The notes under the pieces are model-generated. The model ran no database searches and was not told where the DNA came from. It saw only the letters and a program-made list of their open reading frames with translations. DNA of 64,000 nt from Jidongwangia harbinensis (lineage in GTDB: Bacteria > Actinomycetota > Actinomycetes > Mycobacteriales > Micromonosporaceae). Position 1 is the first letter of the stretch. Each line of letters opens with the position of its first letter. Shown here piece by piece: positions 10,953 to 23,335 of this stretch. The translations under genes were made by a program, and so were the position numbers. Location of the stretch: the NCBI RefSeq assembly GCF_020216025.1, contig NZ_JAIWNC010000003.1, positions 310,001 through 374,000 on the forward strand. Reading direction: 5' to 3'.

Positions 10953-11405
10953 TCAGGCCTGTGTCAGGCTCTCCACCCGGCGCTTGAGCTGCTTCAACGC
11001 CGTATCCATGATCATCTTTTCGGCCTTGCGCCGGAACATGCCGAGCATGCCGATGGAGAGTTCCACCTCGAGGGTGTACGTCACGGTGGTGCCGCCGGCG
11101 CCGTCGTCCACCAGGTCATAGGAACCCTGCTGCGACTTCTGCGTCTTCGACGGCGCGACCAGGTGCCACTCGATGCGGGACAGATCCTCGGCGTAGGAGT
11201 ACTCGAGGGTGTACTCGTCGGCCATCACGCCGGCGTCGATCACGAAATGGACCTCGGCGGCGTACCCGTCCTCATATTCGCTCACCACCTCGACCCGCTT
11301 CATCGCCTCCGCCCACTCCGGATAGCGCGCGAAGTCGCAGATCACCGCGGCGACCTGAGCGAGCGGCGCCTGAACCTGGATCGACTGCGTCGAGGTGTCC
11401 GCCAT
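10953..11405 (-). CDS. SRPBCC (START/Bet v1-like) family protein
   Basis: The 150-residue protein has the polyketide-cyclase/dehydrase-like helix-grip arrangement: SIQVQAPLAQVAAVICDFARYPEWAEAMKRVEVV at the start, alternating strands (AAEVHFVIDAG, RIEWHLVAPS, TTVTYTLEVELSI) and a long C-terminal helix. Such cytoplasmic proteins bind hydrophobic ligands; members beside acyl-CoA or polyketide genes act as cyclases, but no such context exists here. The ATG at 11405 is eight bases after a TAGCCT box that belongs to a damage-type promoter match, so the mRNA may be leaderless although a GGAG also lies close. It is divergent from the sensor kinase gene. Confidence 0.85.
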   Translation of the reverse strand: MADTSTQSIQVQAPLAQVAAVICDFARYPEWAEAMKRVEVVSEYEDGYAAEVHFVIDAGVMADEYTLEYSYAEDLSRIEWHLVAPSKTQKSQQGSYDLVDDGAGGTTVTYTLEVELSIGMLGMFRRKAEKMIMDTALKQLKRRVESLTQA

Positions 11406-11413
11406 AGCTCCGG

Positions 11414-11436
11414 AGGCTACCCGGTACGACCGACAA
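11414..11436 (-). promoter_or_regulatory. RecA-independent DNA-damage (PafBC-type) promoter match upstream of the SRPBCC gene
   Basis: Read on the minus strand: TTGTCGGTC, eight bases, then TAGCCT. This has the element order and spacing of the published mycobacterial RecA-NDp consensus TTGTCRGTG-N8-TAnnnT, with one mismatch in the first block. The -10 hexamer ends eight bases before the ATG. Confidence 0.55.
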
Positions 11437-11490
11437 TCCCGGCGACCGGGCCGAGGAGTCAACAGGCTGCGCCGAGTCGCCGATGGGCCG

Positions 11491-13209
11491 ATGTCGGAGG
11501 GTGCGACTACGATCCGTCACGTGCCAGCCTCCCCCACCGTCCCGGCGCGCGTCCAGCCGCTCGCGATGGCCGCCCGCATCGTCATGATTGCCCTGGTCAC
11601 GACGCTGACCCTGATCACGACGAAGGAGTTCGCGCAGCTCGGCTGGATCGCTCTTCTCCTGGTGGCCGCGCTGCCCGCGTTCGTCGCGCCGGACCACCGG
11701 ATCTGGGCTCCGTTCGGGCGCTTCGCCGAGGTGGCCGTGACCGGGCTGGCCGCCGGGTCGGTGGCCGTGGCGGCCGCGCGCACCGGCACGCTGGACTCCG
11801 GCTTCGGCGCCGAGGCGGTGCTGCCCTACCTGGCCGTCCCGCTGCTCACCGCGGCGCTGCGCCGGCGGCCCACCGAGGGTGCCGCCCTGCTGGGCGTGGC
11901 CGCCGCGACGATGGTGGTGGGCGGCGCGTTCGTCGGCGACCCGCGGCCGATCACCCAGTTCGGCTTCCTGGTCGCCTGCGGGCAGTGGCTGGTGCTCGGC
12001 ACGATCATCACGTTCGCCACCGACACCATGCGCCAGCTGATGCAGCCGGCCGAGCCCACCCCGCAGCCGTACGCCGAGGCCACCCGCCTGCTCACCCAGC
12101 TGCGCAGCGTGGCCCGGTCGCTGCCCGGCGCCACCCTGGACCCGGGCGGCATCTCCGAGCACCTGCTGGAGGAGCTGCGCGCGGTCGCGCCGGGGCACCG
12201 GGCGGCGGTGCTGTCGGCCAGCGGTGGCGGCCGGCTGGTGGTGCTGGCGCAGACCGGTGCCGACCGGGTGGACTGGGAGACGACGCTGGACTCCGACTCG
12301 GCGATCGCCGACGCCTGGGCGACCCAGCAGCCGCAGACGGCCAGCCGGTCCCAGGCGCGCTCGCACCGGGGCGGAGACGCCTCGTCACTCGTGGTGCCGC
12401 TGGTCGCCGGTGTCCGTACCATCGGCCTGGTGATCCTGGAGGCGGACGTCGCGCAGGCGTACCCCTCCGCGGTCGTCAACCGGGTCCTGGAGGTGACCGG
12501 CCCGGCCGCGCTGCGGCTGGAGGCCGCCCTTCTCTTCGACGATGTCCGCTCGCTGGCCACCAACGAGGAACGCCAACGGCTCGCCCGGGAGATCCACGAC
12601 GGGGTGGCGCAGGAACTCGTGATGGTCGGGTACGGCATCGACAACGCCGCGGCGACGCTCCCCGAGGGCGCCGACGAGACCGCGGAGGAGCTGCGCGTGC
12701 TGCGCGGCGAGGTCACCCGGGTCATCACCGAGCTGCGGCTGAGCCTGTTCGAGCTGCGCTCGGAGGTGGACCGCAACGGCGGTCTGGCGGCGGCCATCGC
12801 CGAGTACGCCCGCACCCTCGGCACCTCGGCCGGCCTGCGGGTGCACTTCACGTTCGACGAGTCCACCGCCCGGCTGCCCGCCGCGACCGAGGCGGAACTG
12901 CTGCGCATCGCGCAGGAGGCGATCACCAACGCCCGCAAGCACGCGGGCGCGTCCAACCTGTGGGTGACGTGCACCGTCGACCCGCCGTACGCCGAGATCG
13001 AGGTCTCCGACGACGGCAAGGGTTTCGCCGACGACCGGCCGGACGGACGGTACGGGCTCACCATCATGGCCGAACGGGCCGAACGAATCCGCGGAAGGCT
13101 CAAGATCACGCCGCGACACCCCAGCGGGACAACCGTTGCCGTAGTGCTCGGAAGTTCCGCTCGGCGCGATAGCGTGCGAGATAGCGTTTCCGCTCCAGAA
13201 GGGGAGTAA
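11491..13209 (+). CDS. Membrane sensor histidine kinase, NarL/DegS class
   Basis: About 572 residues. The N-terminal third has several membrane helices (MAARIVMIALVTTLTLIT, LGWIALLLVAALPAFVA, and further segments to about residue 170). A GAF-like region follows (about 200-340, with HRAAVLSASGGGRLVVLAQTG), then the HisKA_3 phosphoacceptor LAREIHDGVAQELVMVG and the ATPase domain with EAITNARKHAGAS (N box) and SDDGKGFADDRPDGRYGLTIMAERA (G1/G2). It would autophosphorylate the HisKA_3 histidine and pass phosphate to the response regulator gene seven bases downstream. ATG 11491 is the best start because earlier codons overlap the divergent gene; GTG 11521 is also possible. The signal sensed is unknown. 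Confidence 0.9.
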   Translation: MSEGATTIRHVPASPTVPARVQPLAMAARIVMIALVTTLTLITTKEFAQLGWIALLLVAALPAFVAPDHRIWAPFGRFAEVAVTGLAAGSVAVAAARTGTLDSGFGAEAVLPYLAVPLLTAALRRRPTEGAALLGVAAATMVVGGAFVGDPRPITQFGFLVACGQWLVLGTIITFATDTMRQLMQPAEPTPQPYAEATRLLTQLRSVARSLPGATLDPGGISEHLLEELRAVAPGHRAAVLSASGGGRLVVLAQTGADRVDWETTLDSDSAIADAWATQQPQTASRSQARSHRGGDASSLVVPLVAGVRTIGLVILEADVAQAYPSAVVNRVLEVTGPAALRLEAALLFDDVRSLATNEERQRLAREIHDGVAQELVMVGYGIDNAAATLPEGADETAEELRVLRGEVTRVITELRLSLFELRSEVDRNGGLAAAIAEYARTLGTSAGLRVHFTFDESTARLPAATEAELLRIAQEAITNARKHAGASNLWVTCTVDPPYAEIEVSDDGKGFADDRPDGRYGLTIMAERAERIRGRLKITPRHPSGTTVAVVLGSSARRDSVRDSVSAPEGE

Positions 13210-13216
13210 CCCGAGC

Positions 13217-13885
13217 ATGTCGACCAGTCCGATGCCGACGACGCGCACCAAGGTCCTCCTTGTCGACGATCACGACCTGATCCGTAAGGGGCTGCGACAC
13301 GCATTCGAGCGCGATCGGCAGTTCGAGGTCGTCGGCGAGGCCGCAACGGCCGCGGAGGCGGTACGCCAGGCCGGTGCGCTGCAGCCCGATGTCGTGATCA
13401 TGGACCTGCGCCTGCCCGACGGGAGCGGCCTGGAGGCCACCCGTGCGCTGCGCAAGAACAACGCCAACATGGGCATCGTGGTCCTCACCATGTATGCCGG
13501 TGACGACCAGCTCTTCGGCGCGCTCGAGGCCGGGGCCAGCGCGTTCGTGCCCAAGACCGCGCCCGCGGACGAGGTGGTGGCCGCCGCCCGGCACGCCGCG
13601 TCGGCGCCCAGCGCGTTCACCGCGGCCGACCTGGCCGAGGCGATGAAGCGGCGGCTGGCGCCGTCCGGTCCGCAGCTGTCCCCGCGCGAGGGCCAGGTGC
13701 TGCGGCTGCTGGCCGACGGCATGAGCGTGGCCGGGATCGCCAAGCAGCTGTTCGTCTCCGAGTCGACGGCGAAGACCCACATCTCCAAGCTGTACGAGAA
13801 GCTCGGTGCCGCGAACCGCGCGCAGGCCCTCATGACGGCACTGCGGCTGGGTCTGCTCGAAGCGCCCGACGCGCCGAAATTCTGA
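13217..13885 (+). CDS. NarL/FixJ-family response regulator
   Basis: The 222-residue regulator has a receiver domain with acidic pair D17-D18, phosphoacceptor D63 in VIMDLRLPDGSG and K113 in FVPKTAP, followed by a LuxR-type helix-turn-helix (LSPREGQVLRLLADGMSVAGIAKQ, then STAKTHISKLYEKL). All receiver catalytic residues are present, so phosphorylation by the kinase encoded just upstream is expected, with dimerisation and DNA binding as output. The ATG at 13217 follows GGGGAGTAA at short distance. A hairpin terminator lies 43 bases after the stop. Confidence 0.93.
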   Translation: MSTSPMPTTRTKVLLVDDHDLIRKGLRHAFERDRQFEVVGEAATAAEAVRQAGALQPDVVIMDLRLPDGSGLEATRALRKNNANMGIVVLTMYAGDDQLFGALEAGASAFVPKTAPADEVVAAARHAASAPSAFTAADLAEAMKRRLAPSGPQLSPREGQVLRLLADGMSVAGIAKQLFVSESTAKTHISKLYEKLGAANRAQALMTALRLGLLEAPDAPKF

Positions 13886-13927
13886 TCCCGGCCCGGCCCC
13901 GCGCGAGGAGCCGGACCCGCCCGCTGC

Positions 13928-13960
13928 GAACCGCCCGCCGCTACTGAGGTCGGGCGGTTC
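13928..13960 (+). terminator. Hairpin terminator after the two-component operon
   Basis: GAACCGCCCG (13928-13937) pairs perfectly with CGGGCGGTTC (13951-13960) across a 13-base loop, followed by TTGGCATT. It lies between the response regulator stop and the convergent DUF4395 gene, so it could serve both strands. Confidence 0.6.
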
Positions 13961-14056
13961 TTGGCATTCCGGGCAGTTGCGGCGTGTCCGGGCCGGTCGA
14001 CCTTCGGCCGGACTTGGCTGCCCGCGCGGTGGCGCCCGGTGACCGAGCGGACCAGC

Positions 14057-14470
14057 TCAGAGCCGCCGGGCGGTCAACCGGCGCGCCGCCAGGTAGGTCT
14101 CGCACCCCAGGCAGAAGCCGAACGCCGCGTTGAGGAACGCGGCGAACAACCCCATCGCCGCGAACGTGACCCCCACGGCCACGACCCCGGACAGGTACCC
14201 CGCCGCGGACACCGCCAGGAACGCGAAGCCGACCACCTGGGCGAACCGCACGGGCGCGGCCGGCTCCCGCTCGGCCGGCGGCCCGATGCGCGGCAGCACG
14301 AGCAGACGGAAGATCAGCGGGTACGGGCCGCGCTGCGGATCGAGCGCGGTGACCGCGAAGACGGCGGCCTGCGCGAGGGCCAGCCAACCGGCGCCGGTGA
14401 CCAGGACGGCGACCAGGACGGCGCTGGTCAGCACGGCGGCGAAGCGCTGGCCACGGGGATCGAGTTCCAT
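14057..14470 (-). CDS. DUF4395 membrane protein
   Basis: The 137-residue membrane protein begins MELDPRGQRFAAVLTS and has about four hydrophobic helices. The family marks are FRLLVLPRIGPPAEREPAAPVRFAQ in the middle loop and the C-terminal GFCLGCETYLAARR with two cysteines. DUF4395 proteins are regularly encoded beside thioredoxin-like proteins, as here where the membrane-anchored thioredoxin gene lies 120 bases upstream on the same strand; the paired cysteines suggest a redox partner in the membrane, which is inference. ATG 14470 was preferred over the GTG seven codons earlier because it begins at the conserved MELDPRG start. Confidence 0.82.
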   Translation of the reverse strand: MELDPRGQRFAAVLTSAVLVAVLVTGAGWLALAQAAVFAVTALDPQRGPYPLIFRLLVLPRIGPPAEREPAAPVRFAQVVGFAFLAVSAAGYLSGVVAVGVTFAAMGLFAAFLNAAFGFCLGCETYLAARRLTARRL

Positions 14471-14590
14471 GGGAAGACTGTGGCAGCTCACCGTCCCGGT
14501 GACCCGGTGAGCATGATCACCTTCGGCCGGGTGCAGATTCGGGGAACCGGGGATCGACCGGAGGCCGACGTCGGCCCGGCCGGTACCGGG

Positions 14591-15130
14591 TCAGCGCGAC
14601 GGGGACAGCAGATCGGCCACCGCGGCGATCAGGTGCGGCTTACCCGGTACGCCGGTCGCCCGCTTGACCACCCGGCCGTCCGCGTCGAGCACCAGCAGCG
14701 TCGGCGTGCGCCAGATGCCCAGTGCCCGCACCTCGTCCAGGTGGCTCTCCGCGTCCACCTCGACGTGCCGCACGCCCGGCAGCATCGCCGCGACGTCGGT
14801 GCACACCCGGCGCACCGCCCGGCACGGCGCGCAGAACGCGGTGGAGAACTGCAGCAGGGTCGCGGGGGCCGGCACCACACCGAGCGACGCCAGCAGGGCG
14901 GCGTCGATCCGCTCCCCCGGTTGCGCTTCCGGGGCCTCGGCGCCGGCCCCGGACTCGACCACACCCTCGCCAGCCCCGGCCGTCACGTCCGCCTCCCCGG
15001 CTCCACGTCCACCCGACCCGGGCGGCGGTGCGGCGACCGGCCGCAGCCGGCCATCCGTGCCCCGGCGCCACAGGCCGACCGCGCCGCCGAGGAGCAGCAC
15101 CGCGACGACGACGAGCAGGCCGGTGGTCAT
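14591..15130 (-). CDS. Membrane-anchored thioredoxin-like protein
   Basis: This 179-residue protein has one N-terminal membrane helix (TGLLVVVAVLLLGGAVGLW, residues 3-21), a 60-residue glycine/alanine-rich linker and a C-terminal thioredoxin domain. The redox motif is FCAPC (C100, C103) inside LLQFSTAFCAPCRAVRR, and the cis-proline loop is IWRTPTLLVLDADG. The active domain therefore probably lies at the membrane surface; the positive residues right after the helix (LWRRG) argue for a cytoplasmic domain. With the DUF4395 gene downstream it forms a probable two-gene redox unit. The ATG at 15130 directly precedes the helix. Confidence 0.85.
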   Translation of the reverse strand: MTTGLLVVVAVLLLGGAVGLWRRGTDGRLRPVAAPPPGSGGRGAGEADVTAGAGEGVVESGAGAEAPEAQPGERIDAALLASLGVVPAPATLLQFSTAFCAPCRAVRRVCTDVAAMLPGVRHVEVDAESHLDEVRALGIWRTPTLLVLDADGRVVKRATGVPGKPHLIAAVADLLSPSR

Positions 15131-15169
15131 GATCTCTACTCTGACACGCCATCGGCGGAGCACCCGCGC

Positions 15170-17134
15170 TCATCCCGGCTGGTAGGCGCTCGCCTGCAGG
15201 GTGAACAACTGGGCGTAGATCCCGTCCGCGGCCATCAGCGACCCGTGATCGCCCTCCTCGACCACCGCGCCGTGGTCCAGCACGTAGATCCGGTCCGCCT
15301 CCCGCACGCTCGCCATCCGGTGGGTGATCAGCACGACGGTCCGGCCGGCGGCCAAGTCGCGGAGCCGGCGGTACACCTCGTGCTCGGCGCGGGCGTCCAG
15401 GTTCGCGGTGGGTTCGTCGCAGATCAGCAGCGGCGCGTCCCGGTAGAACGCCCGGCTGACCGCGAGCCGCTGCCACTGGCCGCCGGACAGGTCGGCGCCG
15501 TCGGTGAAGTGCCGGGACAGCAGCGTGTCGTACTGGCGGCTGAGTTCCATCACGAAGTCGTGGGCGTCGCCGGCCCGGGCCGCCTCGTGCACGTCGCCGG
15601 CCCGTACCTGGCGGTCGTACCGTCCGATGGTGATGTTGGTCCGCGCGGAGAGCGGCCACCGGGTCGGTTCCTGCAGCACCACCGCGACCCGCTCGCGGAT
15701 CGTCTCCGGGTCGTAGGCCCGGGCGTCCACGTCGTCCCACCGGACCGTGCCCCGCTGCGGCCGGTAGAGGCCGGCGAGCAGCGCGGCGAGCGTGGACTTG
15801 CCGGAGCCGTTCTCGCCGACCAGCGCGACCACCTCACCCCGGCGCAGCGTCATGGTGACGTCGCGGACGGCGGGTCGCTCGGCGTCCGGATAGCTGAACG
15901 TGACACCGTCCAGGCGGACCTCGGCGAACTGTGCCGGCGCGACGCCGCCCGGCGCCGGTTCGGCACGGTGCTCGGACAGCTCGCAGAAGCCCTGGAAGTC
16001 GGCGAAGTACAGACCCTGTTCGAACACCCGGTTCGCGGTGAAGGCCAGCTCGGTGAGTTTGCCGATGCCCATGTTGATCGCGTACGCGGCCGCGCCGCCC
16101 GCCGCCAGGTCCATCCGGCCGGTCCACAGCAGCCAGAGCAGGGTCGCGTACGTGGCACCGGTGGCCACCGCGCTCAGTGCCGTGCCGACGAGCGTGGTCC
16201 GGACCCGCCGCCCGGAGATCCGGATCTCCTCCGCGGTGGAGATGGCCAGCACCCGCCGGACCTCGGCGAGCAGGAACTCGCGCACCGTGAACGCCCGCAG
16301 TTCGGACGCGGGTTCCCGGGCGGCGAGCAGTTCGGCGAGCATCCGCTGGCGCCGCCACACGGCGATGAGGCGCAGCACCGAGCGGTATCCGAGGCGCGCG
16401 GACCGCACCGCCGCCCAGCCGACCGGGATGACCGTGAGCACCAGCAACGGCAGCAGGACGGGGTGCAGCACGGCGAGCACACCGGCCGCCGCGGCCAGCG
16501 CGATGAGGTTGGTGACCAGTTCGATGGCGCGGTCGACGAGTTGCTCGGCGGCGGCGATGCCCCGGTCCCGGGCCCGTTCCATGGCGTCGCGCCAGCTCGG
16601 GTCGTCGAAGGTGGACAGGTCGACGCGGGTGGTGAGGTCGAGCAGCCGGAGTTCGGCGGCCTGGTACACCTGGGGTGACAGGCGGCCGTTGGCGGCGGCC
16701 GCGGCGGAGGAGAGCACGCCGCGCACGGCCGCGGCGCCGACGAGCAGGACCAGCGAGGGTACGGCGGCACGCACCCGGTCCGGGGTCGGCCCGTCGCGCA
16801 GCAGGCCGTCGAAGACCCCGACCACGCTGATCATGCTGACCGCGCTGGCGGCTCCGGCCGCGATCTGCAGCGTCACCACGGCCGCGGTGGTGCGCCGGCT
16901 GGCCCGCCAGGCGAGCAGCCAGGCCTGCTGGAGCAGTCGCGGCAACCGGCGCAGCATCCGCAGGAAGCTGGTGTTGGCCGCCTCCTCGGTGCTGGTCATC
17001 CAGTACGGCAGCGCCAGCTCACCGTCGTCGGCCCACTCGGCACCGACGTCGTTCCCGCCCTGCCCCGGTGGCGTCCCGGCCCCGTCACCGACCCGGCCCG
17101 GCGTTTGCGTGTCGTCGGCCGTGGCGTCCTGCAT
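15170..17134 (-). CDS. ABC transporter, fused permease and ATP-binding domains
   Basis: The 654-residue polypeptide is an exporter-type half transporter. A 65-residue polar N-terminus precedes a six-helix membrane domain (about 70-370) and a nucleotide-binding domain (about 400-640) with Walker A GENGSGKST, signature LSGGQWQRLAVSRAF, Walker B LLICDEPTANLD and the H-loop ITHRM. The domain starts with RLDGVTFSYPDAERPAVRDV, as in MsbA/peptide exporters. It must form a homodimer or pair with another half transporter. Substrate is unknown, and no biosynthetic or protease gene adjoins it. The ATG at 17134 starts the protein MQDATADD. Confidence 0.88.
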   Translation of the reverse strand: MQDATADDTQTPGRVGDGAGTPPGQGGNDVGAEWADDGELALPYWMTSTEEAANTSFLRMLRRLPRLLQQAWLLAWRASRRTTAAVVTLQIAAGAASAVSMISVVGVFDGLLRDGPTPDRVRAAVPSLVLLVGAAAVRGVLSSAAAAANGRLSPQVYQAAELRLLDLTTRVDLSTFDDPSWRDAMERARDRGIAAAEQLVDRAIELVTNLIALAAAAGVLAVLHPVLLPLLVLTVIPVGWAAVRSARLGYRSVLRLIAVWRRQRMLAELLAAREPASELRAFTVREFLLAEVRRVLAISTAEEIRISGRRVRTTLVGTALSAVATGATYATLLWLLWTGRMDLAAGGAAAYAINMGIGKLTELAFTANRVFEQGLYFADFQGFCELSEHRAEPAPGGVAPAQFAEVRLDGVTFSYPDAERPAVRDVTMTLRRGEVVALVGENGSGKSTLAALLAGLYRPQRGTVRWDDVDARAYDPETIRERVAVVLQEPTRWPLSARTNITIGRYDRQVRAGDVHEAARAGDAHDFVMELSRQYDTLLSRHFTDGADLSGGQWQRLAVSRAFYRDAPLLICDEPTANLDARAEHEVYRRLRDLAAGRTVVLITHRMASVREADRIYVLDHGAVVEEGDHGSLMAADGIYAQLFTLQASAYQPG

Positions 17135-17176
17135 CGGCGCTCCCGTCCCGGGCGTCGCGGGCCACGAGCCGTGCCC

Positions 17177-17198
17177 GGGCGTGCCGCACCGCACGCCC
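17177..17198 (-). terminator. Hairpin between pimB and the ABC transporter gene
   Basis: GGGCGTGC (17177-17184) and GCACGCCC (17191-17198) form an 8-bp stem with a six-base loop. It lies 68 bases beyond the pimB stop on the minus strand. There is no clear T-run, so it is a weak or factor-assisted terminator. Confidence 0.4.
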
Positions 17199-17265
17199 GT
17201 GCCGGCCCCTCAGCCGTTGATACGCCGCCAGAACGGAGTGTGTCTATACACAGGACTAGGAGTGA

Positions 17266-18396
17266 CTATTCATTCAGGCTCAGAAGCGTCTCCAGGCGGC
17301 CCGCCTGCCGCTCCCAGCGCCACTCGCGTTCCACCCAGGACCGCCCCGCCGCGCCCATCTCCTTGGCCCGGACCGGGTCGGCCAGCAGGTCCACGATGCG
17401 GCCGGCGACGGCGTGCACGTCCCGGCCGCCCACCACGTACCCGGTCTCGCCCTCCCGGACCGCGTCCGGTGCGCCGCCCGAGTCGCCCGCCACCACCGGC
17501 AGTCCGGTCGCCGAGGCCTCCAGGTAGACGATGCCGAGGCCCTCGACGTCCAGGCCGCCGGCCCGGGTGCGGCAGGGCATCGCGTAGACGTCGCCGGCCG
17601 CGTACAGCGACGGCAGCTCGGCCCACGGCACCGAACCGGTGAACACCACGTCGGACTCGACGTCGTGCTCGCGGACCAGCCGTTCCAGCTTCGGCCGGTA
17701 CGGTCCGCCGCTGCCCAGGAGCAGCGCGGCACCGGGCACCCGGCGGCGGATCAGCGGCAGCGCCCGGATCAGCATGTCCTGGCCCTTGCGAGGGACCAGC
17801 CGGGACACGCACACGATCACCGGGCGGCCGGTGAGGCCGTACCGGCGGCGGATGTCGGAACCGTCGACGCCGGGGTGGAACGCGTCGACGTCCACGCCGG
17901 GCGGCAGCCGGTGCAGGTCGGTGAGCCCGTGCAGCGCGCGGTCCAGCCGGACCCGCTGATAGTCGGTGAGGTAGGTGACCACGTCGTTGCCGCGGGCGAT
18001 CCGCCGCAGCGCCTGCCGGGCGCCGGGCAGGGCCGCCCAGCCGATCTCGTGCCCGTGGGTCAGCGCCACCGCACGGCGGATGCCGGCGGTGCGGCGCAGG
18101 CCGTCGGCGAGCAGGCCGAGCGGAGCGGCGGCGCCGAACCAGACCCGGTCGCAGTCGTGCGCCCGGGCCAGCTCGGCCGCCCGGCGCGCCACCGCGGGCG
18201 TGGGCAGCAGCACCGAGGTGTCCTCGCGGACCACCTCGAACGGCTGCTCGGCGTCGAACGCGGCGGCACCCTTCCAGGTGGAGGCGTAGACGACCACGGA
18301 ATCCGCCGGCTGGCGCACCGCGAGGTTGTGCACGAACTGCTGGATGCCGCCGGCCCGGGGCGGGAAGTCGTTGGTGATCAGCAGGGTGCGGCCCAT
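17266..18396 (-). CDS. pimB: GT4 mannosyltransferase, PimB'-like (phosphatidylinositol monomannoside mannosyltransferase)
   Basis: The 376-residue GT-B enzyme would add the second mannose from GDP-mannose to phosphatidylinositol monomannoside at the inner face of the membrane. The start MGRTLLITNDFPPRAGGIQQFV is the hallmark of the actinobacterial PimB' group. Other features are ALTHGHEIGW, the phosphate-binding RLVPRKGQD with its Arg and Lys, and the EX7E block in RTRAGGLDVEGLGIVYLEASATG. The ATG overlaps the upstream M48 protease stop by one base (TGATG), so the two genes are translationally coupled. The specific acceptor is inferred from the family and has not been demonstrated here. Confidence 0.85.
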   Translation of the reverse strand: MGRTLLITNDFPPRAGGIQQFVHNLAVRQPADSVVVYASTWKGAAAFDAEQPFEVVREDTSVLLPTPAVARRAAELARAHDCDRVWFGAAAPLGLLADGLRRTAGIRRAVALTHGHEIGWAALPGARQALRRIARGNDVVTYLTDYQRVRLDRALHGLTDLHRLPPGVDVDAFHPGVDGSDIRRRYGLTGRPVIVCVSRLVPRKGQDMLIRALPLIRRRVPGAALLLGSGGPYRPKLERLVREHDVESDVVFTGSVPWAELPSLYAAGDVYAMPCRTRAGGLDVEGLGIVYLEASATGLPVVAGDSGGAPDAVREGETGYVVGGRDVHAVAGRIVDLLADPVRAKEMGAAGRSWVEREWRWERQAGRLETLLSLNE

Positions 18397-19652
18397 CAGC
18401 GTTCCCCCCGGGCGTACGCGCGGGCGGCGGCCATCCGCTCCACCGTGGACGGATGCGAGGCGAACAGCGCGTGCTCCCAGGCCGGGGGGTCGGGATCGGA
18501 GAGGTTCACCGTGCCGAGCCGGCGCTGCATCGACTCGAACGTCGCCGGGTCACCGGTCAGCGCGAGCGCGTGCGCGTCGGCGCGGGCCTCGATGCGCCGG
18601 GACACGAACGCCTGCGCCGGCCCGGACACCAGCCCGGCCACCGCGACGACCGCGAGCAGCAGCCCGATCGCCCGGGGCTCGCCGATCGACGAGACGCCGG
18701 CCAGCCGCAGCAGCGGCGTCCACGCGCCGAGCAGGTAGAGGAAGACCACGGCGGCGGCCGCACCGAGCGCACCGATCGCGGTGCTGATCAGGACGTCGTT
18801 GTCCTTGGCGTGGCCCAGTTCGTGGGCCACCACGGAGGCCACCTCGTCCGGCGTGGCCTCGGTCAGCATGGTGTCGTAGACGACGATCCGCCGGGTCGGG
18901 CCGAAGCCGGACACGTACGCGTTGACCGCGCGGGTGCGGCGGGACGCGTCCGCCACCAGCACGTCGCGCACCGGCACGCCGTCGCGAGCGGCCAGCGTCA
19001 TCAGTTCGGTGCGCAGGGGACCCTCCGCCATCGGGGTGAACTTGTTGAAGATCGGCTCGACCACCACCGGCAGCACGAACGACAGCAGCACCACCAGCGC
19101 GGCGGCGCCGGCCGCGCCGAACGCCCACCACCAGCGCGGCGCCAGCCGGATCACGGTGTAGAAGCCGAGCAGCGCGAGGCCGCCGATCACCGCGCCCACC
19201 GCGTAGGACTTGGCGACATCGACCGACCACGCGCCCCAGCCCTGGGTGGAGATGCCGTACCGCACCACGACGGTGTGCCGCCACGCCGCCAGCGGCAGCG
19301 TGAGCACCTCGACCAGCAGCACCACGGCCAGCCCGCCGAGCACCGCCTGTGCGATCCAGTGGTCGCCGAACGGGCGGCCGGCCAGCGACACCAGCCGGGC
19401 GCCCAGCGGGGTCAGCCCGAGCAGCAGCGCCGCCGCCAGGCCGAGCACCATCGCGCCGTAGGAACCGGGGCGCAGCGCGGCATGGAAGGCGCGGGCCCGC
19501 TCGACCTGCTCGCCGGGCAGCTGCCCGAGCGCGGCCAGCTGGTCCGGGCGCGGGGCGGGCGGCCGGTGCCACGGGATCAGCGCGACGGCGAGCACCACCA
19601 GGACCACCGCCAGCACGCCGAGGGCGCCGCCGGCCCAGAGCCGTGGCGTCAT
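18396..19652 (-). CDS. M48-family membrane metalloprotease (Ste24/CAAX protease-like)
   Basis: The 418-residue integral membrane zinc protease has the HELGH motif (H277-H281) in VASVVAHELGHAKDND and a downstream RRIEARADAHAL segment with the third ligand Glu. The preceding NAYVSGFGPTRRIVVYDTML block is typical of Ste24-type enzymes. At least six hydrophobic segments surround the active site. Bacterial members take part in membrane-protein quality control. The ATG at 19652 follows GGAGGAGGGG at a normal distance. It is directly coupled to pimB, an association whose meaning is unclear. Confidence 0.92.
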   Translation of the reverse strand: MTPRLWAGGALGVLAVVLVVLAVALIPWHRPPAPRPDQLAALGQLPGEQVERARAFHAALRPGSYGAMVLGLAAALLLGLTPLGARLVSLAGRPFGDHWIAQAVLGGLAVVLLVEVLTLPLAAWRHTVVVRYGISTQGWGAWSVDVAKSYAVGAVIGGLALLGFYTVIRLAPRWWWAFGAAGAAALVVLLSFVLPVVVEPIFNKFTPMAEGPLRTELMTLAARDGVPVRDVLVADASRRTRAVNAYVSGFGPTRRIVVYDTMLTEATPDEVASVVAHELGHAKDNDVLISTAIGALGAAAAVVFLYLLGAWTPLLRLAGVSSIGEPRAIGLLLAVVAVAGLVSGPAQAFVSRRIEARADAHALALTGDPATFESMQRRLGTVNLSDPDPPAWEHALFASHPSTVERMAAARAYARGER

Positions 19653-19713
19653 GTCCCCTCCTCCCGCACCGCGTCGTGGTCCGCTCGCGCGATCATCCTA
19701 GAGACGCCCGGCC

Positions 19714-19935
19714 TCACGCCACGTGGCGGCGGCGCGGCAGCATCGGCACCGCGACCGGCGGCGCCGGCGTCTCCAGCAGCTCCACGTCGAACCCGGCCAG
19801 CTCGAACGTCTCGATCGCGCGCAGCTCGTTGGGGGTGAGATCGGTGATCCCGTCGTGGGTGTCCAGCAGCGTGCTGACCAGGCATCCGCGACAGTCATCG
19901 GCCCGCTCGGCGCAGCGCCCGCAGTCGATGATCAT
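19714..19935 (-). CDS. Small cysteine-rich conserved protein, function unknown
   Basis: This 73-residue protein starts MIIDCGRCAERADDCRGC with a C-x2-C-x6-C-x2-C array (C5, C8, C15, C18), which could bind zinc. The middle LTPNELRAIETFELAGFDVELL is a conserved-looking helix-strand unit. A GAGGAGG ribosome-binding site lies four bases before the ATG. The promoter region upstream has a near-exact RecA-independent damage promoter match, so a role in the DNA-damage response is possible but unproved. It is not otherwise recognised; it lies downstream of the NYN-domain gene on the same strand. Confidence 0.75.
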   Translation of the reverse strand: MIIDCGRCAERADDCRGCLVSTLLDTHDGITDLTPNELRAIETFELAGFDVELLETPAPPVAVPMLPRRRHVA

Positions 19936-20015
19936 GGCTCCTCCTCTGCCTGGCGGACGGCCGCGACGTCAACGGGGGAAGCACCGTCGCGAACCGACCA
20001 CCATCGGTGACAGTC

Positions 20016-20038
20016 ACGCTAAGGAGGGGGTACGACAA
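20016..20038 (-). promoter_or_regulatory. RecA-independent DNA-damage (PafBC-type) promoter match upstream of the 73-residue protein gene
   Basis: On the minus strand: TTGTCGTAC, eight bases, TAGCGT. The match to TTGTCRGTG-N8-TAnnnT keeps the whole TTGTC core, the spacing and both invariant -10 positions. It begins three bases beyond the NYN gene stop codon and would give a 5' leader of about 70 nt before the ATG at 19935. Confidence 0.6.
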
Positions 20039-20040
20039 AA

Positions 20041-21408
20041 TCAGGAGCGGCTGAGCCGGCGCAGCAACGAGTCGGCGCCCATCGGGTACGCGCCGTGCCG
20101 CCGTACCCCGTCCGCGACCTCCCGGTCCGACGAGATCACCACCAGCGGCCGGCCGGCCGGTTCGGCCCGGACCAGCTGACGGATCAACTCGTCCGCGGTG
20201 TCGCCCTTGCGGGAGAACAGCACGCGTACCCCGCGCGGGGCCGGCGGCAGGCCGTGCACCCGTTCCGCGCCGTCGAACACCACGGTCACCTCGTCGCCGG
20301 TCTGCGCGGCGATCCCGCCCAGCCCGGTGACCAGGCGTTTGCGCTGCTGCTCCAGCGACATCTCGGCGAAGCCGCGCTTGGTCACGTTGTAGCCGTCCAC
20401 GATCAGGTGCGCCCGGGGCAGCGCGAGCAACTGGTCCAGCCGGGCCGGGTCGTCGGTGTCCTGCGCCCGGGCCCGGGACCGTTCCGGCGTACCGGGGCGG
20501 TCCGCCGCGGTGTCCGCCACGAAATCCGCGGGCAGCTTGTCGGCCGGGCCGAGCGCCAGCTCCCGGCGCAGCCCGGACGCCGCCTGGCCGATCGTCTCGA
20601 GCAGCAGCCAGAGGCGGGCGTCGTCGACCGCGCGGGCGTCCTTGGCGGTCTGTTTGCCGGTGGCCGCGGCCGCCTCCGCCTCCGCCAGCCGGGTCTTGAG
20701 CCGGCGTACCTCGGCCTCGTGGTCCGCGGTGGCCCGCGCGGCCCGACCCTTCTCGGTGGCCAGCAGGTCGGCGGCCCGCTTCTGCGCGGCCAGCGCCTCG
20801 CGCAGCGCCTTGCCGGTGGACCGGGCCTCCTCACGCAACTGGCCCAGTTCCTCGCGGACCCGGGCCAGCTCGTCACGGAGCTTGTCGGCCTCCACCCGGG
20901 CCACCGCGCGGTCGTGTTCAGCCCGGGCGGCACGCTGCTCGGCCTCGCGGATCAGGTGCGCGACCGCGGCGCTGTCCGCCTCCGCGCGGACCGCCTCCCC
21001 GGCCGCACCGACCAGGTCCCGCCAGCCCTCCGGACGGGCCAGGTAGGCGATCGCGGCGACCTCCACCGGATCGGCCGCGGCCGGCGCCATCCCGCCCACC
21101 ACGGCGGCGCCCAGGTCGCCGGTGTCGGTCACCACCCGGGCGCCGATCCGCTGCCGGAACAGCGGGTCCGAGGCGAGCTGGGCGGCCACCGCGGCCCCAC
21201 CCAGGCGGGCCCGGCGATTCGGTGCGAATCGGGCGACCCGCCGCAGCGGAACCGGGATCTCGTCGCCGGCCAGGCCGGGCAGAGCGGCCGCCGCGAGCGC
21301 CGTGACCCGCTGCCGGACCTGCTCGGGCAGGGTCGGTTCGGGCACCAGGTCCACGTCGGCAGCCGCCTCCTCGGGGAGGTCGTCTTCGAACGGCGCAGGC
21401 GCGGACAT
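20041..21408 (-). CDS. NYN/YacP-domain (PIN-like) RNA-binding protein with central coiled coil
   Basis: The 455-residue protein has three parts. Residues 1-170 are an alpha-helical region (EQVRQRVTALAAAALPG and further). A charged coiled coil follows (about 175-285, heptad-like REEARSTGKALREALAAQKRA). The C-terminal 140 residues form a NYN/YacP domain with HLIVDGYNVTKRGF, VTVVFDGAERVH, SRKGDTADELI and VISSDREVADGVRRHG, which supply the acidic cluster of the PIN-like nuclease fold. Such proteins are suspected RNA or DNA nucleases in the cytoplasm. The ATG at 21408 follows GGGAGAATGGA. It is transcribed divergently from the exonuclease fusion gene. Confidence 0.85.
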   Translation of the reverse strand: MSAPAPFEDDLPEEAAADVDLVPEPTLPEQVRQRVTALAAAALPGLAGDEIPVPLRRVARFAPNRRARLGGAAVAAQLASDPLFRQRIGARVVTDTGDLGAAVVGGMAPAAADPVEVAAIAYLARPEGWRDLVGAAGEAVRAEADSAAVAHLIREAEQRAARAEHDRAVARVEADKLRDELARVREELGQLREEARSTGKALREALAAQKRAADLLATEKGRAARATADHEAEVRRLKTRLAEAEAAAATGKQTAKDARAVDDARLWLLLETIGQAASGLRRELALGPADKLPADFVADTAADRPGTPERSRARAQDTDDPARLDQLLALPRAHLIVDGYNVTKRGFAEMSLEQQRKRLVTGLGGIAAQTGDEVTVVFDGAERVHGLPPAPRGVRVLFSRKGDTADELIRQLVRAEPAGRPLVVISSDREVADGVRRHGAYPMGADSLLRRLSRS

Positions 21409-21505
21409 GAATCCATTCTCCCACCGCACCCGGGTGAACAGCCCGTGGACGTAGGTGATCTTTTGGCCGGCCCGGGAAACCGCCCGGACGGGCCGTCGCG
21501 GAACT

Positions 21506-21528
21506 TTGTCGTACCCCCGTCCTAGATT
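21506..21528 (+). promoter_or_regulatory. RecA-independent DNA-damage (PafBC-type) promoter match upstream of the exonuclease/GIY-YIG gene
   Basis: TTGTCGTAC, eight bases, TAGATT, with the -10 hexamer ending seven bases before the GTG start. The first nine bases and the following CCCC are identical to the copy at 20016-20038 on the other strand. The downstream gene encodes a DNA-repair-type nuclease, which fits damage control. Confidence 0.65.
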
Positions 21529-21535
21529 GCCCGCC

Positions 21536-23335
21536 GTGGCACAACCGGCATACGTCCAGGGCACTCTGGACACCCTCCTGAGCGCCGACGGCTCGGTCGA
21601 CCCGGCGGCGTTGTCCCTGCGGGACACCACGTTCGTGGTGCTCGACCTGGAGACGACCGGCGGCGCGCCGGACGGCGGGGGGATCACCGAGATCGGCGCG
21701 GTCAAGGTGCGCAGCGGCGAGGAGCTGGGCGTCTTCGCCACGCTGGTCAACCCGGGCGAGCGGCTGCCGCCGTTCATCACGGTGCTGACCGGCATCACCG
21801 AGGCCATGCTGGCGCCGGCCCCGCGGATCGAGACGGTGCTGCCCAGCCTGCTGGAGTTCCTCCGCGGCGCGGTGCTGGTGGCCCACAACGCGCCCTACGA
21901 CGTGGGGTTCCTCAAGGCCGCCTGCGCCCGGCACGGCTACCCGTGGCCGCAGATCCGGGTGCTGGACACCGCGGCGCTGGCCCGCCGCGCGCTGACCCGC
22001 GACGAGGTGCCGAACCGCAAGCTGGCCACGCTGGCCCAGTTCTTCCACGCCCGGGTCCAGCCGATCCACCGCGCGCTGGACGACGCGAAGGCGACCGTCG
22101 ACGTGCTGCACGGCCTGATCGAGCGCCTGGGCAGCTTCCGGGTGCACACGCTGGGCGACGCGGCCGAGTTCGCCAAGGCGGTCACGCCCACCCAGCGCCG
22201 TCAGCGCCACCTGGCCGACGGCCTGCCGCACGTCCCCGGGGTCTACGTGTTCCGCGCCGCCGACGACCGCCCGCTCTACGTGGGTACGTCGAAGGACATC
22301 GGCACCCGGGTCCGCAGCTACTTCACCGCCAGCGAGAAACGGGCCCGGATCTCCGAGATGCTCGGGGCGGCCACCCGGGTGGAGGCGGTGGAGTGTGCCC
22401 ACTCGCTGGAGGCGGAGGTCCGCGAGCTGCGCCTGATCGCGGCGCACGCGCCGCCGTACAACCGCCGGTCGAAATATCCGGAACGGGTGGTCTGGCTGAA
22501 GCTGACCGCGGAGGTCTACCCCCGGCTGTCGGTGGTGCGCGCGCTGGCCGACGACGACGCCACCTACCTGGGCCCGTTCTCCTCCCGGCGCACCGCCGAG
22601 CTGGCCGCGGCCGGGGTCTACGACGCGGTGCCGCTGCGCCAGTGCACGCACAAGCTCTCGGTCCGGACGATCACGCCGGCCTGCGCGCTGGCCGAGCTGG
22701 GCCGGTGCCCGGCACCCTGTGAGCACCAGATCAGCCCGGAGGAGTACGCCGCCCGCGCCGCGATCCCGTTCCGTACCGCGACGGAGGGCGACCCGCGGCC
22801 GATCGTGGACGCGCTGCTGGCCCGGATCGAGGTGCTGTCCGGGCGGCAGCGCTACGAGGAGGCCGCGGTGGTGCGGTCCCGGCTGGTCGCGCTGCTGCGC
22901 GCCACGGTGCGGATGCAACGGCTGGGCGCGCTGACCCGGCTGCCGGAGATGGTGGCGGCCCGCCGGGACCAGATCGGCGGGTGGGAGATCGTGGTGGTCC
23001 GGCACGGCCGGCTGGCCGCCGCGGCGACCTCGCCGCCGCGCCAGCACCCCCGCCCGACGCTCGACATGGCCCGGGCCACCGCGGAGACCGTGCGGCCCGG
23101 CCCGGGGCCGGTGCCGGCCGCCTCCGCGGAGGAAACTGAGCGCATCCTCGCGTGGCTCGAACGCCCGGACACCCGTTTGGTGGAGACTTCCGGCGACTGG
23201 GTGTCACCGGCTCGTGGCGCCGCGCGGTTTTCCGACCTGCTCACCAGGGCGGAAGCCGCCGGATCGGCACGAGACTCGTCCGTTCGCTCATCGGTAACTG
23301 ACCGTTCGGATGACGCTCGCTCGCTTAGGCTGTAA
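21536..23335 (+). CDS. DEDDh exonuclease fused to a UvrC-like GIY-YIG nuclease domain
   Basis: This 599-residue fusion has an N-terminal DnaQ/epsilon-type 3'-5' exonuclease (residues about 25-195: FVVLDLETTGG, VLVAHNAPYDVGFL, and IHRALDDAKATVDVL with the His-Asp pair). A GIY-YIG domain follows (about 220-300: HVPGVYVFRAADDRPLYVGTSKDIGTR written in two blocks VPGVYVF and PLYVGTSKDIGTR). The remainder resembles the UvrC middle region with cysteines and a UVR-like segment (ARIEVLSGRQRYEEAAVVR). Orthologues in mycobacteria (Rv2191 type) are called UvrC-like or Cho-like nucleases. It probably acts in excision repair. The GTG at 21536 has no ribosome-binding site but a perfectly placed -10 box. Confidence 0.92.
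   Translation: MAQPAYVQGTLDTLLSADGSVDPAALSLRDTTFVVLDLETTGGAPDGGGITEIGAVKVRSGEELGVFATLVNPGERLPPFITVLTGITEAMLAPAPRIETVLPSLLEFLRGAVLVAHNAPYDVGFLKAACARHGYPWPQIRVLDTAALARRALTRDEVPNRKLATLAQFFHARVQPIHRALDDAKATVDVLHGLIERLGSFRVHTLGDAAEFAKAVTPTQRRQRHLADGLPHVPGVYVFRAADDRPLYVGTSKDIGTRVRSYFTASEKRARISEMLGAATRVEAVECAHSLEAEVRELRLIAAHAPPYNRRSKYPERVVWLKLTAEVYPRLSVVRALADDDATYLGPFSSRRTAELAAAGVYDAVPLRQCTHKLSVRTITPACALAELGRCPAPCEHQISPEEYAARAAIPFRTATEGDPRPIVDALLARIEVLSGRQRYEEAAVVRSRLVALLRATVRMQRLGALTRLPEMVAARRDQIGGWEIVVVRHGRLAAAATSPPRQHPRPTLDMARATAETVRPGPGPVPAASAEETERILAWLERPDTRLVETSGDWVSPARGAARFSDLLTRAEAAGSARDSSVRSSVTDRSDDARSLRL

Follow-up and report, generated by a model that had tools for sequence, protein, structure and literature searches.

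The window analyzed here is a stretch of 64,000 nucleotides (nt) from Jidongwangia harbinensis (genome G000, 9.74 Mb; contig positions C48:310001-374000), in which three sites had been proposed in an earlier note as promoters of the RecA-independent DNA-damage response. In mycobacteria, promoters of this type (RecA-NDp or PafBC promoters) are reported to read tTGTCRgtg-8 nt-TannnT (PMC5656591). Site C (21506..21528, plus strand, TTGTCGTACCCCCGTCCTAGATT) joins a −26 element, TGTCGTACC (21507-21515), to the −10 hexamer TAGATT (21523-21528). It precedes a gene (21536..23335, plus strand) for a DEDD exonuclease that also carries a GIY-YIG (UvrC-like) domain. Site B (20016..20038, minus strand, TTGTCGTACCCCCTCCTTAGCGT) has the identical −26 element (20037-20029) with the −10 hexamer TAGCGT (20021-20016), and it faces a gene (19714..19935, minus strand) for a 73-residue cysteine-rich protein with a CxxC-x6-CxxC pattern. 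Site A (11414..11436, minus strand, TTGTCGGTCGTACCGGGTAGCCT) has TTGTC at the −26 spacing and TAGCCT as its −10, and lies upstream of an SRPBCC (Polyketide_cyc2) gene (10953..11405, minus strand; Pfam 1.1e-15).

Start codons are placed 8 nt past the −10 at site A (ATG) and 7 nt past it at site C (GTG), which is the arrangement of leaderless transcripts. The mRNA of the cysteine-rich gene begins with an 80-nt leader, in which a ribosome-binding site of its own was recognized by eye. The exonuclease protein matches the Pfam domains RNase_T (1.6e-34) and GIY-YIG (8.4e-6), and NCBIfam NF005907 (822.6 bits, cut-off 454) identifies it as a DEDD exonuclease domain protein of the PRK07883 group; its NF005904 score of 954.7 is slightly below the cut-off of 969 for that family. 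An NYN/YacP-like gene (20041..21411, minus strand; Pfam NYN_YacP 1.4e-18) lies between sites B and C. A fourth site, D (11492..11513, plus strand), is absent from the earlier note and has the form TGTC-N12-TACGAT located 7 nt upstream of the GTG (11521) of a histidine-kinase gene.

The sequences of sites A, B, and C were confirmed at these coordinates and strands, and each site is intergenic and oriented toward its adjoining gene. The exact pattern TTGTC-N12-TAnnnT occurs three times in the window compared to an expectation of 0.05, and this number was reached in 0 of 100 shuffles. These three are all the exact matches in the 64 kb, as the earlier note had claimed. It had also held that all three fit TTGTCRGTG-N8-TAnnnT. 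Site A departs from this consensus by one mismatch, and sites B and C depart by three each. Given that 39 window sites match with three or fewer mismatches versus 19.2 expected, the published consensus alone would not pick out B and C, and other evidence is needed. Because both miss the first block, TTGTCRGTG, by three mismatches, we class them as a variant rather than as the published consensus. Both nevertheless retain TGTC at the fixed distance from the hexamer (TGTC-N12-TAnnnT). Thus, the coordinates and spacing in the earlier note hold, but what it took for mere mismatches at B and C is a separate consensus, TGTCR-N-ACC-N7-TAnnnT, rather than sloppy copying of TTGTCRGTG.

Conservation separates sites B and C from sites A and D. 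Relatives of the exonuclease gene were collected from 48 loci, of which two distant ones (L070 and L071) were omitted. The 46 remaining Micromonosporaceae loci comprise 32 of the Actinoplanes type (81-91% identity) and 14 others (71-78%) from Micromonospora, Phytohabitans, Plantactinospora, Virgisporangium, and others. All 46 loci keep TGTC-N12-TAnnnT at site C, each with an ATG or GTG 6-8 nt past the −10. The triplet is ACC in 45 of them and ACG in one, and the leading T of TTGTC is present in only 10. Site B is kept, with ACC, in all 37 loci where the cysteine-rich gene was found (the other nine gave no match at the cut-off), which favors the earlier proposal that this gene is a candidate damage-response gene. 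A GTCACCGATGGTGG-like sequence occurs right after the −10 in the leader of its mRNA (19936-20015), and GTCAC[CG]GA is present in 27 of the 37 relatives. This sequence could possibly form a small hairpin or be a second signal.

Site A behaves differently from sites B and C. Only six of the 46 named loci yielded the SRPBCC gene; TGTC is present in two of these (L028 and L035) and missing from four. Among the best 30 orthologous loci from 56 genomes with a match, TAnnnT lies 5-9 nt upstream of the ATG in all 30, and TGTC occurs at the proper spacing in three (the window genome, G203, and G244). Likewise, site D has TGTC in 3 of the 10 loci where the kinase was found (own included; 36 loci examined). 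Sites A and D therefore serve as internal controls, indicating that neighboring leaderless-type −10 promoters do not retain TGTC, and both were rejected as PafBC sites. With TGTC missing from 27 of the 30 orthologous promoters, we remove the SRPBCC gene from the candidate damage-response genes proposed in the earlier note. Its promoter at site A is probably of the ordinary leaderless kind, the TTGTC being there by chance. The SRPBCC promoter (11414-11419; orthologues L133-L162) is reduced to its −10, with the GGTAGCCT-type hexamer and leaderless ATG kept in all 30 family genomes compared.

The variant element is abundant in the genome as a whole. TTGTC-N12-TAGNNT occurs 15 times compared to 4 for the reversed control, and 9 of these 15 read TTGTCGTAC. 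TGTCRTACC-N7-TANNNT yields 30 sites and its reversed control yields one, compared to two sites for TTGTCRGTG-N8-TAGNNT. A search with the mycobacterial consensus therefore overlooks most of the regulon. An open frame of at least 100 codons begins with ATG or GTG 6-8 nt past the −10 at 22 of the 30 sites versus 5.6% at other downstream positions. For the refuting condition named in the earlier note, a motif equally frequent within coding sequence, the reversed control and this start-codon spacing are the nearest tests. The genes located behind these sites include, above NCBIfam cut-offs, those for RecA, UvrB, DNA polymerase IV (dinB), RadA, and 3-methyladenine glycosylase I (tag). UvrA and PolA give strong NCBIfam matches that fall below cut-off because both proteins are truncated where the locus ends. 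Both window genes also belong to this set, as do genes for a DEAD-type helicase, two AlkZ-like glycosylases, and a JetA (Wadjet) protein. Thus, the element precedes repair genes, though not at all 30 sites.

Next to this form, we counted the alternative in which TGG replaces ACC. TGTCRNACC and TGTCRNTGG were counted at equal spacing in 30 genomes. In the window's family, ACC exceeds TGG in 13 of 13 genomes (328 versus 77 sites). By comparison, ACC exceeds TGG in none of the 13 genomes of families f2, f4, f5, and f6 (97 versus 313 sites), and six f4 genomes of 7.9-9.9 Mb carry 32-47 TGG sites apiece. Three genomes from distant families (G010, G040, and G092) again have more ACC than TGG (42 versus 4 sites). 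We then sampled 40 sites from five genomes, consisting of 20 listed TTGTCRGTG sites (G023, G038, and G062) and 20 of the 22 listed ACC sites (G010 and G040). Ten of these matched a reference set of window-genome proteins and 30 gave no match. TGG-form sites precede recA and uvrA (f2 and f4), the cysteine-rich gene (f2), and the exonuclease gene (f5), and ACC-form sites of f15 precede the cysteine-rich gene (twice), a RadA-like gene, and a UvrD-like gene. The f5 cysteine-rich gene (L180) and some repair genes were recognized by eye among the 30 nonmatching sites, and the former was later confirmed.

The cysteine-rich protein is widely distributed. It falls into no family of Pfam (E 0.01) or NCBIfam (1e-8), but has 4979 relatives at E 1e-3 in a large protein set, and its four cysteines are invariant in a 40-row alignment. 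Homologues are present in 50 of 198 genomes of the phylum (own included), and 46 of these 50 also have a PafB match (weak in G021). Promoters were read by profile in all 50, replacing a strict protein pattern that had recognized 36 of 50 genes, 27 with a site. TGTC-N12-TAnnnT lies within 220 nt upstream of the gene in 30 of the 50 genomes, representing 13 family labels. Reversed controls gave 0 of 50, and the shuffle rate was 0.0042 per sequence. In 30 of the 50 loci, compared for neighbors up to about 1.5 kb away, a divergent exonuclease gene is the neighbor in seven (f2, f5, and f12), an NYN gene in five (including the window), and neither in 18. In G062 (L180 and L181), the divergent cysteine-rich and exonuclease genes have identical 23-base PafBC-type sites 40 bases apart, and the two genes are also divergent neighbors in G038 (L207).

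This uncharacterized, widely conserved small protein likely takes part in the damage response, and it is likely a metal-binding accessory of a nuclease step. AlphaFold models were too weak to use (mean predicted local distance difference test score [pLDDT] 60 without an alignment; 66, with a predicted template modeling score [pTM] of 0.36, with 40 rows). Rv2708c, considered as the mycobacterial homologue, was dropped when a literature lookup gave two unrelated matches. Rv2191 has a single mention, inside a gene list, in the one open-licence paper found.

The regulator expected to act at such promoters is encoded by the window genome. PafC, on contig C78, is the only one of eight HTH_PafC matches above the family cut-off. 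PafB adjoins it, and the locus also holds pafA, prcA, prcB, pup, and dop (names assigned by eye). PafB matches the Mycolicibacterium smegmatis (M. smegmatis) protein of PDB entry 7p5x at 4.7e-66, and also 9fnd and the A. aurescens fusion 6sj9. It is an orthologue of the M. smegmatis protein (7p5x, 9fnd) by sequence and shares the F-x-R-x-FERDK helix of the helix-turn-helix (HTH) domain. The helix reads F-S-R-M in M. smegmatis versus F-Q-R-K in the window genome. All 13 family genomes have EAFQRKFERDK (DAF once), and families f2, f4, f5, and f6 have F-[S/N/E/D]-R-M-FERDK. Elsewhere, the helix is F-R-R-M in G010 and G092 and F-G-R-M in G008.

We then compared helix and triplet in the 26 genomes of the phylum in which the helix could be read and a site lies upstream of the cysteine-rich gene. 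PafB N-termini were available for 45 of the 50 genomes with this gene (all but G021, G040, G064, G086, and G157), and the helix pattern matched 35. Only one of the 10 unmatched genomes, G028, has a promoter site, and its helix (L-R-R-M) was assigned by eye. All seven genomes with S, D, or E as the helix residue have TGG or TGC as the promoter triplet. When the residue is Q, R, H, or K, the triplet is ACC (13), AGG (3), CGG (2), or ACG (1), and TG is found in 0 of 19. The association has a Fisher value of 1.5e-6, a statistic that ignores shared ancestry. It is therefore likely that the triplet changed together with residue X of F-X-R in the PafB recognition helix (Q here; S, N, D, or E in TGG genomes). 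In chemical terms, replacing TGG with ACC places the guanines on the opposite strand, a position in which Q, R, H, or K could donate hydrogen bonds, and S, N, D, or E could accept them from C or A. The triplet shift offers a testable specificity code for PafB.

We propose that sites B and C are conserved predicted −26/−10 promoters (TGTCR-N-ACC-N7-TAnnnT) that would be activated by PafBC after DNA damage, that the triplet shifted together with the PafB helix, and that site A carries a chance TTGTC. We assign this reading a probability of roughly 0.8, based on sequence comparison. The damage-promoter interpretation in the earlier note accordingly survives for B and C, given their deep conservation, the genome-wide repair-gene neighbors, and the encoded PafB and PafC, and it is not supported for A. 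Sites B and C would likely be switches that turn on the exonuclease/GIY-YIG and cysteine-rich genes after damage, with both PafBC dependence and damage induction as predicted properties of these promoters. In M. smegmatis, PafB is reported to contact the −26 motif through its HTH, and PafC to contact sigma domain 4 through its own (PMC11804915), and by analogy this mechanism may also hold in the window's genome. Single-stranded DNA would bind PafBC, the PafC HTH would dock on sigma-A domain 4, the PafB HTH would read the −26 element, and the housekeeping RNA polymerase could then start at a promoter that has no −35. At site C, the transcript would begin on or next to the GTG and yield the exonuclease/GIY-YIG protein from a leaderless mRNA, and at site B the small CxxC-CxxC protein would be made via the 80-nt leader. 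Within the element, TGTCR and the −10 would stay constant and the triplet would be switchable, with ACC preferred in the window's family and TGG in the class-mates of f2, f4, f5, and f6.

A more general version of this proposal is that Actinomycetota use a two-part −26 code in which TGTCR does not vary and a single PafB helix residue determines the triplet (Q, R, H, or K with ACC, AGG, or CGG; S, N, D, or E with TGG). The mycobacterial consensus would then be one regional dialect and ACC the wider form, and the CxxC-CxxC protein, as yet unnamed, would have belonged since early times to the core of the RecA-independent DNA-damage response. We consider this version tentatively, as an idea with somewhat less in its favor than against it.

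Several observations weigh against the proposal that B and C are PafBC promoters of a shifted form. For some of the 30 genes, no connection with repair is apparent (VOC, AraC-type, ABC ATPase, HAD, and unnamed proteins, identified by eye or with Pfam). Within the window genome itself, dnaE1 (L010, C48:209647) and uvrD (L014, C53:17608), both named by eye, carry the TGG form as the mycobacterial TGTCGGTGG, and these are the genome's only two matches to it. Each family genome has 2-16 TGG sites (77 in total, compared to 7 in the reversed control; the ACC control gave 5), and the 13 S/N/D/E genomes have 97 ACC sites compared to 15 in the reversed control (10 for TGG). The minor form exceeds its control in both groups, and thus the difference in form is a preference and not a rule. 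G206, from the window's family, is nearly even (16 ACC versus 14 TGG), and G008, whose helix carries Gly, has 4 ACC sites and 1 TGG site. No site precedes the cysteine-rich gene in 20 of the 50 genomes that have it, including all six of f27, all four of f43, and both of f39. By kinship labels, the link to the helix appears to reflect about two independent changes. Furthermore, PafB of the window's family also differs by a loop insertion and by an M-to-K change within this helix, and therefore Q is not proven to be the determinant.

The small number of independent changes and the mixed forms within genomes would also be expected if the triplet bases are not read and simply drifted, with the PafB helix change coinciding by shared ancestry. 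We regard this explanation as unlikely but worth serious attention. Unread bases would hardly stay ACC in 45 of the 46 family promoters at site C and in all 37 at site B, and triplet and helix changed together in a family that belongs to the same order or class as TGG genomes. TGTCR-N-ACC might instead be read by an activator other than PafBC, for example ClgR or some other WYL regulator. ClgR is reported to recognize the mycobacterial P1 promoter region (PMC5656591), and the genome has seven weaker HTH_PafC matches below cut-off besides PafC. However, the element matches the described PafBC element in spacing and orientation, its TGG form stands before recA, uvrA, and the cysteine-rich and exonuclease genes in other families, and its form tracks the PafB helix. 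We therefore consider another activator improbable.

We give similarly little credence to the view that all three window sites are PafBC promoters, with site A a recent gain by the SRPBCC gene. Site A is the closest of the three to TTGTCRGTG, and TGTC at its spacing recurs in G203, G244, L028, and L035. Against this stand the 27 promoters that have no TGTC while the −10 and ATG persist, the four named loci where it is missing, and the adjoining promoter D, which shows the same pattern. Finally, recA and uvrA are classical SOS genes, and SOS-like matches with three or fewer mismatches are more frequent in the window (45) than in shuffles (22.6), as might be anticipated if LexA controlled the gene set. 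Yet none of the 45 has fewer than two mismatches, there are three in the single match that overlaps a site (21509-21524), and an element at a fixed distance upstream of the −10 is unlike a LexA box. No LexA SOS box (a TCGAAC-N4-GTTCGA-like palindrome) was found at the promoters, the best match in the window having at least two mismatches. LexA control thus seems very improbable.

Two PafBC papers, from 2018 and 2021, reportedly define the regulon and its DNA contacts. The promoters at B and C resemble the mycobacterial RecA-NDp/PafBC promoter in TGTCR, spacing, TAnnnT, orientation, association with repair genes, and the presence of PafBC. They differ in that ACC replaces TG(G) after TGTCRN and in that the first T is kept at site C in so few loci. 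The motif variants described for Mycobacterium tuberculosis (M. tuberculosis), TGTCGG, TGTCAG, or TGTCAC followed by N10-TA-N3-T (PMC8151990), indicate that the bases after TGTCR already vary there, but the usual forms at B and C, TGTCGT and TGTCAT, are not among these three named variants. The Streptomyces gene SCO6735 is described as ultraviolet-inducible with a RecA-NDp promoter (PMC5087735), and hence the promoter type exists outside mycobacteria. According to that report, its promoter aligns with those of recA in M. tuberculosis and S. coelicolor, and we liken it to B and C by this description only. An initial motif search, as reported, did not find the M. smegmatis motif conserved in S. 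venezuelae (PMC9380542), and the reach of the response beyond mycobacteria is therefore contested in print (PMC9380542 versus PMC5087735).

The promoter type, its occurrence outside mycobacteria, and the variation after TGTCR are thus already reported (PMC5656591, PMC8151990, PMC5087735, and PMC8223512). In the open-licence literature, viewed mostly as listings, PafBC and Actinoplanes were not found together, and no title or abstract opening among the matches listed concerns the ACC form. Within that scope, three points appear to be new: the family's preference for ACC, the connection of this form with the PafB helix, and the wide retention of the cysteine-rich gene as a target.

Other genes with related sites also deserve mention. 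A TTGTCGTAGCC site lies upstream of pup in the Pup-proteasome/pafBC locus (L015 and L072; G000 C78:11314-11336, minus strand). The site is exact in 2 of the 9 family loci in which pup was found (own included; 13 examined), with near matches in G226 and G198 where CGTC replaces TGTC, and we do not claim PafBC feedback on pup. The two AlkZ-like DNA glycosylase genes (L076 and L102; Pfam) have both the element and leaderless-type starts. Two loci of the genome (L082 and L086; G000 C23 and C29) share an identical TGTCGTACCGGCCTCGTAAGGT site and the start of the same unnamed protein, perhaps as a repeated element. Lastly, the JetA (Wadjet) gene (L101; G000 C109:21796-21817; PADLOC 4e-207) starts 8 nt past a TGTCGTACC element, and a defense gene behind a damage-type promoter would be unusual.

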